Below, one piece after another: positions 3,568 through 14,571 of a stretch of 64,000 nt of DNA (its first letter is position 1; each line of letters opens with the position of its first letter). The notes under the pieces were generated by a model, which was not told the DNA's origin, made no database searches, and saw only the letters and a program-made list of their open reading frames with translations. The DNA is from Paracoccus methylovorus (GTDB taxonomy: Bacteria > Pseudomonadota > Alphaproteobacteria > Rhodobacterales > Rhodobacteraceae): assembly GCF_016919705.1 (NCBI RefSeq), contig NZ_CP070371.1, forward strand, positions 1,371,001-1,435,000, given 5' to 3'. Both the position numbers and the translations under genes were made by a program.

Positions 3568-4509
3568 ATGAAGCAATTTGTTCTCGCCAGCCTGTTCGCG
3601 GGGGCCCTCGCGGTTCCGGCCATGGCCGATTACACCATCATCGCCCCCGCCAATCCGGGCGGCGGCTGGGATCAGACCGCCCGCACCATGCAGACCGTGC
3701 TGCAAGAGGAAGGCATCTCGAAATCGGCACAGGTGCAAAACGTGCCCGGTGCCGGCGGCACCATCGGGCTTGCGCAATTCGCCAGCCAGAACAAGGGCAA
3801 CCCCGATGCGCTGATCGTCGGCGGTTATGTCATGGTCGGGGCCATCCTGACCAACAATTCCCCCGTCTCGCTGACGGATGTGACGCCCATCGCGCGGCTG
3901 ACCGGCGAATACGAGGCGATCGTGGTTCCCGCCGCCTCGCCCATTCAGGACATCGCAGGGCTGATCGAGGCGCTGAAGGCCGATCCCGGTGCGGTCAGCT
4001 GGGCGGGCGGCTCGGCCGGGGGCACCGACCATATCGCCGTGGGCCTGATCGCCAAGGCGGCAGGCGTCGATCCCACCAAGATCAACTACATCGCCTATTC
4101 CGGTGGCGGCGAGGCACTGGCCGCGATCCTGGGCAATCAGGTGACGGCGGGCATTTCCTCGCTGGGCGAATTCGAGGCCCAGATCCAGGCTGGCACGCTG
4201 CGCCTGCTGGCCGTCACCTCGCCCGAGCGTCTTGAGGGCGTGGATGCGCCCACGCTGCAAGAAGCGGGGCTGGACGTGACGCTGGAAAACTGGCGCATGG
4301 TCGCCGCCGCGCCGGGCCTGTCGGACGAACAAAAAGCCAAAGTGACCGCCGACATGGAAAAGATGGCGAAATCCGAAGCCTGGCAAAAGCAGCTTTCCGA
4401 CAAGGGCTGGATGGACACTTGGCTGGCCGGTCCCGAATTCGAAGCGCAGCTTGAAAAGGACATCGCCGCGACCGACGCGATCCTCAGGGACATCGGTCTG
4501 GTGAAATGA
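3568..4509 (+). CDS. tctC: Tripartite tricarboxylate transporter binding protein TctC
   Basis: This is the periplasmic solute receptor of a TTT-family transporter (313 residues). The signal peptide MKQFVLASLFAGALAVPAMA is followed by DYTIIAPANPGGGWDQTAR, the typical TctC/Bug strand-loop that contacts the carboxylate. The start at 3568 is chosen because a GGAGGA-like Shine-Dalgarno lies just upstream and the signal peptide begins there. The stop overlaps the tctB ATG (ATGA). The order tctC-tctB-tctA is classic. Citrate or a related tricarboxylate is the likely substrate, but TTT receptors vary, so the substrate is inferred. Confidence 0.93.
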   Translation: MKQFVLASLFAGALAVPAMADYTIIAPANPGGGWDQTARTMQTVLQEEGISKSAQVQNVPGAGGTIGLAQFASQNKGNPDALIVGGYVMVGAILTNNSPVSLTDVTPIARLTGEYEAIVVPAASPIQDIAGLIEALKADPGAVSWAGGSAGGTDHIAVGLIAKAAGVDPTKINYIAYSGGGEALAAILGNQVTAGISSLGEFEAQIQAGTLRLLAVTSPERLEGVDAPTLQEAGLDVTLENWRMVAAAPGLSDEQKAKVTADMEKMAKSEAWQKQLSDKGWMDTWLAGPEFEAQLEKDIAATDAILRDIGLVK

Positions 4510-8892: not shown

Positions 8893-9786
8893 ATGACGGT
8901 ATCGCTGGATCAACTGGAGGCTTTTGTCGCGGCCGCCCGGCATGGATCGTTCTCGGCAGCCGGTCGGGCGCTGCGCAAGGCGCAGTCGGCGATCAGCACA
9001 CAGGTTTCGAATCTTGAAGACGACCTGGGCGTGATCCTGTTCAGCCGCGAGGGGCGCAACCCTGTGCTGACTCCGGCAGGCGAGCGGTTGCTGGCCGAGG
9101 CCAAGGTGGTGCTGGACCGCCGCGAACATCTGATCGGCGTCGCCGCCAGCTTCGAGGCCCATGTCGAACATCGTCTGGTCGTCGCCATCGACGAACTTTA
9201 TCCCGAACAGGCCTTGGGCACGCTTTTCGCCGATTTCGCGGCGCATTTTCCGCATGTCGAACTGGAGCTGCTGTTCCCGATGATGGAGGACGTGGGCCGG
9301 CTGGTGCTGGACGGCAAGGCGGATATCGGCGTGATGTGGCGGCAAGAGGTGCTGCCGACCGAGATCGCTTTTCACACTCTGGGCTGGGTGCCGCTGAAAC
9401 TGGTTTGCGGCAAAGACCACCCGCTGGCCGGCACGGTGATCGACTGGGAGGACCTCAAGCGCCACCGCCAGTTGATGGTGGCAGTGCGCGGCGAGGGGCC
9501 CGAAAAACAGCGACTGCGCACGGCGGCCGAGGTCTGGTGGGTCGAAAGCCACTGGATCATCCTGCAAATGGTCCGGCAGGGGATCGGCTGGGCGCTGGTG
9601 CCCGATCACATCATCGACAACTCTCCGGTCCGGGACGATCTGGTGACGCCGCCCTTGCAATTCGACGGGGCCGACTGGCCGGTGGCGCTGGAACTGGTCT
9701 GGCACAAGCAGCGCCCCAGCGGACCGGCGGCGCGCTGGCTGCGCGAACGCTTTGCCGCCATGCGCATCAGCGGCCTTCCCGGTTAG
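8893..9786 (+). CDS. LysR-family regulator, probable regulator of the PACE pump
   Basis: This 297-residue LysR regulator begins [20 protein letters not shown] and has the helix-turn-helix [22 protein letters not shown]. The effector domain shows [19 protein letters not shown] and [16 protein letters not shown] elements. The divergent position next to the PACE pump parallels AceR, which activates aceI on exposure to its substrate. The end overlaps convergent selA by 20 bases. Confidence 0.85.
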
Positions 9787-11164
9787 CCCCGGCAAGGTCC
9801 AGCCGGTCAAGCTGGGACAGGAACGGCGCTTCGTCCTCAAGGCAGCGCAGATCCAGCAGATACTGCCCCTTATGCACCCGGCCGATCACCGGCAGCGGCA
9901 GATCGCGGAACGCCTGCGCGATACGCGAAACCGACACAGCGCCGGTTTCGGCAAAGGCCAGACCCGCGCTTGGCAACAGATCCACCGGTTGCGCACCGCT
10001 GCCGATCTGGCTGGAGCAATCGATGACCTGAACATTGGCCAGACCCGACAGTGCCGTCTGAACCTGCGGGCAAAGCCGCTGGGCCAGCGCCCGGATTTCA
10101 TCCCGCGGCCGCGTCAGCAGGCGCAGCGTCGGGATCTCGGCCCTTGCGCGCTGGGGGTCGTCGTGGCTTTGCAGCGTCTCTGCCAGCGCGGCCAGAATGA
10201 TCTTGTCCACCCGCAGGGCGCGTTTCAGCGGATTGGCCCGCATCCGGTCCACCAGCGCACGCGAGCCGGCGATGATGCCGCATTGCGGTCCGCCAAGCAG
10301 CTTGTCCCCGCTGAAGGTCACCGCATCTGCCCCGTCCCGGATCGCCTGTCGCGCCGTTGGCTCGGGTGGCAGGCCAAAGGCGTCAAGGTCGATCAGCGAG
10401 CCGCTGCCCAGATCGATCAGGAACGGAATGCCGTGACGCCGCGCCAGCGCCGCCAGATCGGCCTGCGGCACCTCGGAGGTAAAGCCCTGGATCGAGTAAT
10501 TGCTGGCGTGGACCTTCATCAGGGCGGCGGTGTCTTCGTTCACCGCATTGGCAAAGTCGCGCAGATGGGTGCGATTGGTGGTGCCGACCTCGTGCAAGCG
10601 ACAGCCGGCCCCGCTCATCACATCCGGCACCCGGAAGGCGCCGCCGATTTCGACCAGTTCGCCGCGTGAAACCACCACCTCGCGCCCGGCCGCCAACGTG
10701 TTCAGCATCAGCATCACGGCGGCGGCGTTGTTGTTCACGACCGTCGCAGCCTCGGCACCGGTCAGCCGGCAAATCAGCGCCTCGACGTGGCTGTCGCGGT
10801 TGCCCCGCGTGCCACGATCAAGGTCGTATTCCAGATTGGTCGCGCTGATCATGGCCTGAAACGCCGCATCGGCAGCGCGCCGCGACAACAGCGCACGGCC
10901 CAGATTAGTGTGGTTGACCGTCCCGGTCAGGTTCAGCACCGGCCGCAACGAGGGGCTGGCCCGCGCTGCCAGCCGGTCCGCGCATTCCTCCAGCACCCCT
11001 TGACCCGCCGCCGCGTCGCCACGGCCCGCCGCCTGACGCCGGTCCTGCAACAGGTTGCGCAGCATCCCGACCACATTGTCGCGCCCGTGACGCACGATCA
11101 GTTCCTGCGCCTCGGTCTGGCGCAAAAGCTTGTCGATCGAGGGAAGGGTGCTGCGAGGATCCAT
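9767..11164 (-). CDS. selA: L-seryl-tRNA(Sec) selenium transferase
   Basis: SelA is a PLP enzyme that converts Ser-tRNA(Sec) to Sec-tRNA(Sec) with selenophosphate. At 465 residues it is full length. It shows the N-terminal tRNA-binding region ([20 protein letters not shown]), the [18 protein letters not shown] motif and the PLP lysine Lys288 in [14 protein letters not shown]. The ATG at 11164 follows GAAAGAG; an in-frame TTG further up is less likely. Usually selB follows selA, but here the convergent LysR gene abuts and no selB, selC, selD or selenoprotein gene was recognised in the window. It is the last gene of the nrdD-nrdG-molbindin strand. Confidence 0.93.
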
Positions 11165-11200
11165 GGCTCTTTCGGTCTGGCAAGGAATTGTCGTCAAGGC

Positions 11201-11506: not shown

Positions 11507-12157
11507 TCAAGCGCGGTTGCGGCCGGCCCCTCGATCCGCAACATGCACCGGGCGATTCCGTCGCGTCCCGGCGGTGCGACAGGTTTGCAGGACATGGGCA
11601 GCCACGCCAAGCTGCGCAAGTTCGGCAGACATGCGCGCCAGTGCCGCATCGTCGATCAATTCTGGATCGACCGTCGTGCGGACCTGGTAATCCACGCCGC
11701 TGCCCAGCAGCAGCAGCAGGCTTTCCCGCGCCTTCACGCCACTGCCTGCCGCCCCGGTCACGCGGCGGTAATCGGAAAACGGCGCCTTCACGTCAAAGCC
11801 CACCCAATCGCAAAGCGGCAGCACCGCAGCCAACCGGGCGGGATAGGGACCGCCGGTATGCAAACCGACCCTGAACCCCAAGGCACGAACCGCCTGCATC
11901 GCCTGCGGCAAGCCGCGTTGAAGCGTAGGCTCTCCGCCGGAAAACACCACCCCGTCCAGCAGGCCGCGCCTTGTCATCAGAAACGCCATCACCTCAGCCC
12001 AATCCACCCCGGTTTCGGCCTCGGGCGGGATCAGGTGCGGGTTATGGCAATAGGGGCAATCCCACGGGCACCCCTGCAGGAAAAGGGTGGCGACCAACTG
12101 ACCCGGCCAGTCGCAGGTAGACAGGCGTTGCAGGCCGCCGATGCGGATTTCAGCCAA
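11507..12157 (-). CDS. nrdG: Anaerobic ribonucleotide reductase activating enzyme (radical SAM)
   Basis: NrdG uses a 4Fe-4S cluster and S-adenosylmethionine to place the glycyl radical on NrdD. The 216-residue protein has the CxxxCxxC cluster motif (Cys30, Cys34, Cys37 in GCPWDCPYCHNP) and the SAM-binding FSGGEPTLQ. The start overlaps the end of the small glycyl-radical gene by 8 bases, so activator and substrate peptide are translationally coupled. The C-terminal tail, from about residue 195, is Arg-rich and unlike the usual family end. Confidence 0.92.
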   Translation of the reverse strand: MAEIRIGGLQRLSTCDWPGQLVATLFLQGCPWDCPYCHNPHLIPPEAETGVDWAEVMAFLMTRRGLLDGVVFSGGEPTLQRGLPQAMQAVRALGFRVGLHTGGPYPARLAAVLPLCDWVGFDVKAPFSDYRRVTGAAGSGVKARESLLLLLGSGVDYQVRTTVDPELIDDAALARMSAELAQLGVAAHVLQTCRTAGTRRNRPVHVADRGAGRNRA

Positions 12158-12332
12158 GATCGGCCTGCGTTTCGCTGAAATACACCCTCTCGCGGAATTC
12201 GCCCTTCTTGCCCCGGTTGAACGAGGACATGGGGCGGTGATAGCCCATCACGCGGGTCCAGATCTCGCAGGGCTGGCGTTCCTCGTCGGCCAGCAGGATC
12301 TCTTCGGGCTTGGTTTTCTGAATATCGAACAT
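12150..12332 (-). CDS. nrdD: Separate glycyl-radical domain of class III ribonucleotide reductase
   Basis: This 60-residue gene encodes only the C-terminal glycyl-radical loop normally fused to NrdD. The motif is TRVMGYHRPMSSFNRGKKGE, with Gly30 as the probable radical site. It has its own ribosome site (AGGAG, 6 bases before ATG) and starts 16 bases after the nrdD stop in another frame, so it is not a simple read-through product. It overlaps nrdG by 8 bases. NrdG is inferred to activate this peptide, which then docks into the large subunit. It could instead be a recent frameshift, but the ribosome site and clean ends favour a stable split. Confidence 0.85.
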   Translation of the reverse strand: MFDIQKTKPEEILLADEERQPCEIWTRVMGYHRPMSSFNRGKKGEFRERVYFSETQADLG

Positions 12333-12348
12333 GGTTTTCTCCTGATAA

Positions 12349-14115
12349 TCAATGCGCGGCGGCTTGCCGCTTTTTCACGAGCAGTTCCTCGTCGCAGCGC
12401 GGGCAGAACTGGTGTTCGCCCGCGATGTAGCCGTGTTTGGGACAGACCGAGAATGTCGGGGTGATGGTGATATAGGGCAGGCCGAAATTCTCCAGCGCCC
12501 GGCGCACCAGCTTGCGGCATGTATCGGCCGAGGAAAGCTGCGTGCCCATGTAAAGATGCAGCACCGTGCCGCCGGTATATTTGCGTTGCAGCGCCTCTTG
12601 CCGCTCCAGCGCCTCGAAAGGATCGTCGGTAAAGCCGACCGGAAGCTGGCTGGAGTTGGTGTAATAGGGCTCGTGCCCGGTCCCGGCCTGAAGGATGTCG
12701 GGGAAGCGTTTTTTATCCTCCTTGGCGAAGCGATAGGTGGTGCCTTCCGCCGGCGTGGCTTCCAGGTTGTAGAGATGCCCGGTTTCTTCCTGAAAGGCGG
12801 TGATGCGCGCCCGCACATGATCCAGAAACCGCAGCGCAAAGGCATGACCCCATTCCGAGGTGATGTCATGCGCATCATCGGTGAAATTGCGGATCATCTC
12901 GTTGATGCCGTTCACACCCAGCGTCGAGAAATGGTTGCGCAACGTTCCAAGATAGCGCCGGCTATAGGGAAACAGCCCGTCGTCCATCAGTCGCTGGATC
13001 ACGCCGCGCTTGATTTCCAGACTGTCGCGGCCAAGCTCCAGCAACTGATCCAGCCGCCGAAGCAACCCCGCCTCGTCGCCCTTGTACAGATGGCCCAGCC
13101 GCGCGCAGTTGACGGTAACGACGCCCAGCGATCCTGTCTGCTCGGCGCTGCCGAACAGCCCGTTGCCACGCTTGAGCAGCTCGGTCAGGTCCAGTTGCAA
13201 CCGGCAGCACATAGAGCGCACCATGTTTGGCTTGAGGTCCGAGTTCAGGAAGTTCTGGAAATAGGGCAGGCCGTATTTCGCCGTCATCTCGAACAGCCGC
13301 ACGGCATTTTCGCTTTCCCACGGGAAATCCGGGGTGATGTTGTAGGTCGGGATCGGGAAGGTGAACACCCTGCCCTTTTCATCGCCGCGCGTCATCACCT
13401 CGATATAGGCGCGGTTGATCATGTCCATTTCAGCCTGCAACTCGCCATAGGTGAAATCCATCGGCTGGCCGCCGATGATCGGCACGTCGTCGCGCAGGTC
13501 CTCGGGGCAGACCCAGTCAAAGGTCAGGTTGGTGAACGGGGTCTGCGTGCCCCAGCGCGAGGGCACGTTGAGGTTGAAGATCAGTTCCTGCATCCCTTGC
13601 CGCACCTCGGCGTAACCCAGCCCGTCCTTGCGGATGAAGGGCGCCATATAGGTATCGAACGAACTGAAGGCCTGCGCCCCGGCCCATTCGTTCTGCAAGG
13701 TGCCCAGAAAGTTCACGATCTGGCCAATGGCGCTGGACAGGCGTTTGGGCGGGCCGGCTTCGACCTTGCCGGGGACACCATTGAACCCTTCGGTCAGCAG
13801 CGTGCGCAGCGACCAGCCGGCGCAATAGCCCGCCAGCATGTCAAGGTCGTGGATATGCAGATCGCCCTGCCGGTGCGCGTGACCGACTGCGGGCGAATAG
13901 ACATGCGACAGCCAGTAATTGGCGATCACCTTGCCCGAGACGTTCAGGATCAGCCCGCCCAGCGAATAGTCCTGATTGGCATTGGCATTCACCCGCCAAT
14001 CGGCGCGGTCGAGATATTCGTTGACCGACGAGGCCACATCGACGGCGACGTCACGCCGTTCCAAGACATGGCCGGGCTGTGCGGTTTCAGGCGCGGGTGC
14101 GATGGGCGCCGACAT
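12349..14115 (-). CDS. nrdD: Anaerobic (class III) ribonucleoside-triphosphate reductase, large part without glycyl-radical loop
   Basis: NrdD makes dNTPs from NTPs without oxygen. The catalytic barrel is clear: NLNVPSRWGTQTPFTNLTFD, SMCCRLQLDLTELLKRGNGL and GGTVLHLYMGTQLSSADTC. It ends in a zinc-site-like segment with Cys558, His561, Cys571 and Cys574, where most relatives have four Cys. The RVxGY glycyl-radical loop is missing and is encoded by the next gene. There is no N-terminal ATP-cone. The start at 14115 (MSAPIAPAPE) is a best guess, giving 588 residues; the open frame upstream runs through the riboswitch. The order is nrdD-glycyl peptide-nrdG-mop-selA. Confidence 0.9.
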   Translation of the reverse strand: MSAPIAPAPETAQPGHVLERRDVAVDVASSVNEYLDRADWRVNANANQDYSLGGLILNVSGKVIANYWLSHVYSPAVGHAHRQGDLHIHDLDMLAGYCAGWSLRTLLTEGFNGVPGKVEAGPPKRLSSAIGQIVNFLGTLQNEWAGAQAFSSFDTYMAPFIRKDGLGYAEVRQGMQELIFNLNVPSRWGTQTPFTNLTFDWVCPEDLRDDVPIIGGQPMDFTYGELQAEMDMINRAYIEVMTRGDEKGRVFTFPIPTYNITPDFPWESENAVRLFEMTAKYGLPYFQNFLNSDLKPNMVRSMCCRLQLDLTELLKRGNGLFGSAEQTGSLGVVTVNCARLGHLYKGDEAGLLRRLDQLLELGRDSLEIKRGVIQRLMDDGLFPYSRRYLGTLRNHFSTLGVNGINEMIRNFTDDAHDITSEWGHAFALRFLDHVRARITAFQEETGHLYNLEATPAEGTTYRFAKEDKKRFPDILQAGTGHEPYYTNSSQLPVGFTDDPFEALERQEALQRKYTGGTVLHLYMGTQLSSADTCRKLVRRALENFGLPYITITPTFSVCPKHGYIAGEHQFCPRCDEELLVKKRQAAAH

Positions 14116-14344
14116 CAGCAGGCCACCCCCGTTGCCCGGTTCCGGCCAAGGACGGCGCTGGCGCGCCTGCCACTTGCCGCGCTTGGGGGGATCGCCCCGG
14201 CTTTGACAAGACTGGTTATGAATACTGCCCGCATCTGTTCCCCGTGGTGCTGTGGACGGGGCAGGCACGGACGCTTTGGGCCATGGGCCGACAAGGCCGC
14301 ATCGCCAAACGCACCGCCGGACACCCCGTCCGTGGTTCATCTTC
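14116..14344 (-). other. nrdD leader between riboswitch and start codon
   Basis: About 230 bases separate the riboswitch core from the chosen nrdD start. A weak open frame crosses it, but no conserved protein is visible. It probably holds the expression platform of the riboswitch. A start further upstream cannot be excluded. Confidence 0.4.
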
Positions 14345-14530
14345 GTCGTCGCGGCAGGTCTCCTGGCTCGCAGGTCGCTGCCCTTGCCGGCCTTCCCAAT
14401 GCCTTGCGGCACCAGTGGCATGATCCGGCGCAGGCTCGCTGCTTACAGTTGCGGGGGCAGCGCCGGCCTTGCCCCGAAAGGCGCACCGGCTTCCCTCTTG
14501 GCTTTCGGGTTGGATCGACCCGAAAGAACC
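14345..14530 (-). ncRNA. Cobalamin (adenosylcobalamin) riboswitch upstream of nrdD
   Basis: Read on the minus strand, the leader contains the conserved elements in the right order: GGGAAGCCGGTGC (near 14483-14496), CGCAACTGTAAGC (near 14440-14452), GCCACTGGTGCC (around 14410) and AGCCAGGAGACCTGCC (14353-14368). Together these define the B12 element. It lies about 230 bases upstream of the chosen nrdD start. The known logic is repression when cobalamin is plentiful, so the B12-independent reductase would be made when a B12-dependent class II enzyme cannot work. The exact boundaries are approximate. Confidence 0.92.
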
Positions 14531-14541
14531 GTGACGCCCAT

Positions 14542-14571
14542 ATTTAGCGACTAAACCGATAAATTCGTCAA
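14542..14571 (-). promoter_or_regulatory. Candidate promoter of the nrdD operon
   Basis: On the minus strand TTGACG (14566-14571) and CTAAAT (14542-14547) are spaced by 18 bases and lie just upstream of the riboswitch. I saw no good FNR-type TTGAT-N4-ATCAA site over it, though anaerobic control would be expected. Confidence 0.45.

Follow-up and report, generated by a model that had tools for sequence, protein, structure and literature searches.

A probable two-chain class III ribonucleotide reductase in Paracoccus methylovorus and related bacteria, with the radical glycine on a separate small protein

In known NrdD, the class III ribonucleotide reductase (RNR), the radical glycine sits on a loop at the C-terminus that lies within the barrel and follows the zinc ribbon (PMC11226230; PMC4493059). 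Glycyl radical enzymes are cut by oxygen at the radical (PMC2795772; PMC3019208), and for pyruvate formate-lyase (PFL) spare parts are described, GrcA/YfiD and T4 Y06I, which are small free-standing proteins with a glycyl-radical loop (PMC8683613); spare parts have also been suggested for glycyl radical enzymes beyond PFL (PMC8683613). The stretch of DNA analysed here, referred to as the window, comprises 64,000 nucleotides (nt) of Paracoccus methylovorus (assembly GCF_016919705.1, contig NZ_CP070371.1, positions 1,371,001 to 1,435,000), and the open reading frames (ORFs) read from its sequence include three consecutive minus-strand genes, nrdD, a 60-codon ORF and nrdG, of which the 60-codon ORF encodes the radical loop. 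With considerable confidence, the locus can be read as a two-chain class III RNR, in which NrdD supplies the barrel and the zinc ribbon and the radical glycine is supplied in trans and activated by NrdG. No description of a separate radical subunit of NrdD was found in the titles, abstracts and passages of the literature searched, and an earlier account in older nrdDG papers is possible.

Domain content of the two chains

The large chain matches the Pfam family NRDD (PF13597, 562 positions) over positions 2–532 with 574 bits and the model NF006126 with 1042.9 bits, and the small chain matches NRDD over positions 531–562 with 32.6 bits (cut-off 26.2). Since these spans are complementary, the two pieces together complete one NRDD domain. 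The large chain terminates 14 residues past its zinc ribbon with the sequence ...CPRCDEELLVKKRQAAAH, contains no radical-loop motif and was classed as split. Its finger-loop motif belongs to the MCCR type, one of the two types (MCCR and MGCR) described for NrdD (PMC9669993), and its CxxH...CxxC pattern is a predicted zinc ribbon, with metal binding assigned by pattern and the zinc site of Thermotoga maritima NrdD, CxxxHx6CxxC, for comparison (PMC4493059). The same pattern occurs in 79 of the 80 NrdD chains of the related-locus set described below, including all four fused ones. In the small chain, the glycine of the loop RVMGY is present in 15/15 members of the small-protein alignment (A1). 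An NRDD domain, finger-loop cysteines, a zinc ribbon and an adjacent NrdG are thus all found here as in class III RNR, but the radical glycine is not at the C-terminus of the same chain; because the loop stands on a separate ORF, the locus is filed as a two-chain variant of class III NrdD. No ATP-cone was matched in the window NrdD, unlike in the split NrdD chains from C. necator H16 (L083) and Stutzerimonas (L062).

The small ORF begins 16 nt past the nrdD stop in a frame different from that of nrdD, and the sequence 5' of it, TTATCAGGAGAAAACC, holds a ribosome-binding site (Table 1). The start codon of nrdG is TTG at 12157, and nrdG overlaps the final 8 nt of the small gene. An earlier note on this DNA had claimed that nrdD ends after its zinc-site region with the loop RVMGY in a separate 60-residue gene, which the ORFs and the PF13597 spans confirm, and that the small gene has its own ribosome site, a 16-base spacing, another frame and an overlap with nrdG, all of which were found in the sequence.

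Table 1. Coordinates of the features; positions are those of the window, except in the last two rows, where they are those of the plasmid loci named.
Feature	Position	Strand	Details
nrdD, large chain	12349..14115	-	588 amino acids; ATG at 14115; stop 12351-12349
Finger-loop motif S-M-C-C-R	13201..13215	-	residues 301-305; double-cysteine MCCR type; invariant in alignments
Zinc ribbon CxxH...CxxC	12394..12444	-	residues 558-574, near C-terminus of large chain
Intergenic gap nrdD/small gene with ribosome-binding site	12333..12348	-	16 nt; AGGAG at 12339-12343
Small glycyl-radical gene	12150..12332	-	60 amino acids
Radical loop RVMGY	12240..12254	-	small-chain residues 27-31; Gly30 = 12243-12245
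nrdG, radical S-adenosylmethionine activase, NrdG2	11507..12157	-	TIGR02495, 192.1 bits, cut-off 131.15
Cobalamin riboswitch 5' of nrdD	14336..14548	-	RF00174, 126.8 bits, gathering 31.5
selA, downstream of nrdG	9767-11197	-	TIGR00474, 579 bits
Lone small gene, Allochromatium plasmid (L146)	3986-4195		annotated nrdD
Lone small gene, Allochromatium plasmid (L087)	2460-2645		annotated nrdD

Conservation of the split among related loci

When public genome contigs were scanned with the large protein, at least 80 close NrdD loci emerged, and the 80 matches listed were checked for the single fused ORF that the earlier note had named as the finding in close relatives that would speak against its reading. 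The outcome was the opposite, with the loop on a separate downstream ORF at 75 of the 80 loci, four fused loci (L050, L065, L080 and L082) and one undecidable locus (L051), the contig of which stops 135 bases past nrdD. This conserved split supports the idea, put forward in the same note, that NrdD may have a permanent trans-acting glycyl-radical domain. The split reaches beyond Rhodobacterales and is found, according to record titles, in alpha-, beta- and gammaproteobacteria, and in Campylobacterota on a named plasmid. It is also seen in complete plasmid records, where the small gene is annotated as nrdD and the large one as ribonucleoside triphosphate reductase (C. necator H16, Bradyrhizobium ottawaense and Sulfuricurvum kujiense are examples); databases already list the small piece, as nrdD, without explanation. 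The natural fusions (74–79% identity) directly join the same two pieces and rebuild a standard NrdD.

Start codons could be assigned at 73 of the 75 split loci, L003 and L035 having been removed by a filter on open frames longer than 300 amino acids. The small gene starts with ATG behind a Shine-Dalgarno-like site in 73/73, a count that is biased upward because the best of several starts was picked by a script. The distance from the nrdD stop to the small-gene start ranges from -41 to +298 nt, the relative frames of the small gene are divided 26/27/20 (n = 73), and nrdG was matched at 78 of the 79 decidable loci. The rate of non-synonymous change (dN) in the small gene is below that of synonymous change (dS) in 7/7 comparisons, with dN/dS of about 0.07 to 0.6 over 43 core codons; the partners were six congeneric genomes and a named P. 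denitrificans plasmid, and two of the seven figures are identical. The small gene is shown by these values to be under selection.

A sequencing error or a strain-specific frameshift that broke a fused nrdD would fit the existence of fused homologues (4/80), but a split common to 75/80 loci, with spacing and frame varying freely, its presence in complete plasmid records and the unlinked copies described below leave this explanation with a negligible probability, and it was rejected on these grounds.

Within the genus of the window, the small protein matched 8 of 101 genomes at E<=0.001, a count that takes in the genome of the window and a doubtful match in G020, and all six of the remaining loci inspected have the order nrdD, small gene, nrdG. 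Matches to the small protein were found in 42 of 385 genomes of the window's class, in 16 of 398 genomes of a phylum sample and in 33 of 369 genomes of the class to which genome G766 belongs. Among 30 loci of the window's class (window included), the small gene stands beside nrdD at 21, is fused at 2, stands beside nrdG only at 1 and is alone at 6; the corresponding figures are 4, 5, 0 and 6 for 15 further places (the weak L137 and L138 being among the last 6) and 26, 1, 1 and 2 for 30 loci in the class of G766. The 'alone' status of L311 is unsure, as it lies at a contig end. The second matches in G290 and G169 (L137 and L138), which are weak (41 and 44% identity), were excluded as members, as was the match in G020 (E 7.8e-4, 43% identity) within a frame of 416 amino acids. 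Short proteins of the small-chain kind form 2096 clusters at E<=1e-3, and those of the 120 clusters listed that have a name are either called 'anaerobic ribonucleoside-triphosphate reductase' or labelled as hypothetical or as unknown in function.

A tree of 107 NrdD chains (95 split and 12 fused, some rows being long-branched) requires six changes of the split/fused label, of which well-supported branches force only two. A 100-row clade (support 81, not starred) consists of 94 split and 6 fused chains, and its sister group holds four fused rows and the split Sulfuricurvum. The fusions inside the 100-row clade may be re-fusions, or the split may have arisen several times.

Unlinked, plasmid and viral copies of the small gene

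In three draft genomes (G203, G373 and G399), nrdD is followed by more than 1.4 kb of sequence in which no radical loop occurs, and another contig holds the only small gene found, which in G373 adjoins nrdG. With the genes on separate contigs the partners must, if the assemblies are right, meet as separate proteins. The unlinked copy of G203 (L120 1336-1710) has a longer open frame of 124 amino acids with extra cysteines before the radical loop. A fused protein might also be made from two frames by a programmed frameshift, stop read-through or a similar signal, and the closeness of the genes (16 nt here), which overlap at a few loci (lowest gap -41), would suit such a device. All three frames are used nevertheless (26/27/20 of 73) and the gaps reach 298 nt, and since such free use of frame and spacing is not as expected of a frameshift or read-through device, and the genes lie on different contigs in the three drafts and in orphan copies there is no nrdD in the record, this possibility is very remote and was rejected on conservation, frames, spacing and unlinked copies.

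Extra copies of the small gene were found in five genomes (G102, G173, G385, G463 and G190), each of which has one operon copy and one to three further copies with no nrdD or nrdG match in the surrounding piece. In G463, the nrdD of the operon copy is truncated by the contig end; in G385, which has only one NrdD match in the genome, the orphan (L127) is less sure, as a contig end lies about 0.4 kb away on the upstream side. The orphan of G173 is near an endolysin gene, and one orphan of G102 is near a primase/anti-restriction gene. In G477 the small gene is present and no NrdD was matched, the genome being 96% complete, with a gap possible. Similarly, two named plasmids, Allochromatium vinosum pALVIN01 and A. 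tepidum pAt1, have a lone copy of the small gene (Table 1) and no other NRDD match. The operonic and orphan small proteins retain the same residues around the loop.

The small protein might instead bind NrdG or NrdD as a regulator or decoy, with the large chain working in another way; it is short and often unnamed or hypothetical, and the orphans could act as inhibitors. Such a role is improbable, as Gly30 and the residues around it are conserved in operonic copies and orphans alike, the split large chains are without a radical-loop motif, and the natural fusions rebuild a standard NrdD.

Copies also occur in uncultured viral sequences. Searching IMG/VR with the small protein yielded 51 loci, of which one is a fused NrdD and the other 50 show no match to NrdD or NrdG in the piece inspected (up to 4 kb per side, less near contig ends), and a scan with the alignment, of which the best 80 of 258 relatives were kept, added 48 new ones. 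Among the 99 distinct viral loci, 97 have no NrdD or NrdG match (90, together with 7 that carry a variant motif), one is fused (L233) and one has nrdD upstream (L235). Whole records were searched with PF13597 for 90 of the 99 (42 and 48 in two rounds): 87 hold only the C-terminal piece of NrdD, two of these matches being themselves just under the cut-off, two hold NrdD (L233 and L235), and the record of L269 has an additional match under the family cut-off (11.5 bits); none of the viral records is rated at least 90% complete, and they may be fragments. Gly30 is kept in 99/99 viral loci and Cys22 in 93/99, the latter figure being biased by the presence of Cys22 in the search patterns. A scan of 129 of the 164 ORFs listed around viral loci, from 20 loci, found terminase, DNA polymerase, helicase, baseplate, integrase and endolysin families, with portal and tail proteins in single scans, and at L193 and L211 the small gene is close to terminase and portal genes. 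All members of alignment A1 (15/15) match phrog_4132, an unnamed phage family listed as of unknown function.

Two side observations concern the viral copies. Five of the 90 orphan viral small proteins (L204, L226, L227, L228 and L246) have an N-terminal extension rich in cysteines ahead of the radical loop, and this extension perhaps forms a metal site of its own. In L229, an 8.1-kb viral piece with only two ORFs of at least 100 amino acids, the radical-loop frame (about 4001-4135) contains an in-frame TGA, for which a recoded stop codon is possible.

There is an even chance that bacterial class III RNR of this type works with an exchangeable radical subunit and that phages and plasmids carry only the radical part in order to replace the host's oxygen-cleaved subunit and restart deoxyribonucleoside triphosphate synthesis during infection. 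On this reading, phages would bring along a spare part for ribonucleotide reductase. It is also conceivable that only the operonic small protein is a radical subunit and that those on viral and plasmid DNA are passengers or inhibitors and not replacement parts, as no host is linked to the viral contigs and no free-standing copy was found in 50,697 GenBank phage records, where the lone match at E<=1e-3 is annotated NrdD. Two relaxed searches of these phage records returned only NrdD-type genes (one fused NrdD and one annotated class III RNR), and the phage match MT835493.1 was rejected as a free-standing copy, being a fused NrdD by its reading frame. A passenger role is nevertheless rather unlikely, given that the same residues are conserved, that the glycine is present in 99/99 viral loci and that the viral and plasmid copies appear to stem from more than one acquisition. 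The last point comes from a small-protein tree with too few columns and most forks unresolved, in which supported branches force at least four label changes.

Proposed mechanism and comparison with known systems

In the two-chain enzyme proposed here, the large NrdD chain would form a ten-stranded barrel that contains the MCCR finger loop, and end with the zinc ribbon, and the 60-residue chain with the radical loop would dock in trans into the open barrel. NrdG would turn Gly30 into a glycyl radical, on the small chain alone or once it is docked (activation of YfiD requires its partner; PMC8683613), and the radical would then move on to the cysteine of the finger loop, as it does in ordinary NrdD. 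In the least certain step, a fresh small chain would take over from one cleaved by oxygen. Since the oxygen cut in glycyl radical enzymes falls at the radical, only the 60-residue chain would need replacing, and such replacement would explain why viruses and plasmids carry the small gene alone. In C. necator H16, nrdDG is described as essential for complete denitrification (PMC2864759), and since its nrdDG locus has the split form, the split system is very probably active.

Several points weigh against the two-chain proposal. The literature searched yielded no biochemical data on the small protein. The predicted structure of a fused natural homologue has low confidence (mean predicted local distance difference test score, pLDDT, 69.2), residues 588–633, which contain the radical loop, score below 50, and the model is uninformative on docking in the two-chain complex. 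The unlinked cases depend on draft assemblies, the Shine-Dalgarno count is biased as stated, and the split is not universal, 4 of the 79 decidable close relatives being fused. The fold of the fused homologue matches NrdD entries, with 4u3e as the top match, and adds little; the small protein itself matched no solved structure at E<=1.

The genome of the window has three further loci matching PF02867, the large chain of class I/II-type RNR. Because a cobalamin riboswitch precedes the operon and other RNR genes are present in the genome, the enzyme is probably used under anaerobic conditions when vitamin B12 is short. An alternative nrdD ORF of 690 amino acids from 14421 would run through this riboswitch, which makes the ATG at 14115 the likelier start. 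FNR-type boxes with at most two mismatches were matched 19 times in the window, against an expectation of 12.3, with no match immediately upstream of nrdD, and no tRNA-Sec was found within the window, which has selA downstream of nrdG.

If the proposal is correct, the radical-bearing part of a central enzyme has been separated from its catalytic body, and radical installation, docking and oxygen damage become testable on a 60-residue protein. In many proteobacteria, what is annotated as one NrdD enzyme would depend on a second subunit for its activity, which matters for expression and deletion work. In addition, the unnamed phage family phrog_4132 would gain a role, and the suggestion of spare parts beyond PFL would become directly testable.

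The locus shares with the class III NrdD/NrdG systems of known structure (T. maritima, P. copri and T4) the NRDD domain, the finger-loop cysteines, the zinc ribbon, the sequence of the radical loop and the adjacent NrdG, but in the solved NrdD structures the radical loop is the C-terminus of the same chain (PMC11226230; PMC4493059), whereas here it is a separate gene product. A catalytic RNR subunit made from two consecutive genes is also described for the split class II enzyme NrdJa/NrdJb of Pseudomonas aeruginosa, the genes of which are separated by 16 bp, as compared with 16 nt between nrdD and the small gene; however, NrdJa/NrdJb is cobalamin-dependent and its split isolates no glycyl radical (PMC4860495; PMC4009431). 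Phage nrdD genes in pieces are reported from Aeromonas phage phiAS4 and Lactococcus phage 949, but these are broken or intron-interrupted genes of single phages, for which the source passages describe no conserved radical subunit (PMC3653736). The parallel with GrcA/YfiD drawn in the earlier note is strengthened by the orphan copies in bacteria, on plasmids and on viral contigs, and does not extend to kinship in sequence: the small protein has no match to PF01228 (Gly_radical), NRDD being the only Pfam family matched at E<=1, and no PF01228 partner was matched in the whole window genome at E<=0.01 (control genomes matched in 3/14). The small NrdD protein is likewise free-standing, phage-borne forms occur in both groups, and action in trans with an activase, described for GrcA/YfiD, would hold for it as well (PMC8683613). 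GrcA/YfiD belongs to a different family and has pyruvate formate-lyase as its partner, whereas the partner here is a ribonucleotide reductase; moreover, unlike in GrcA/YfiD, the NrdD partner chain is loopless from the start, so the small chain would be a required subunit and not a repair part only.

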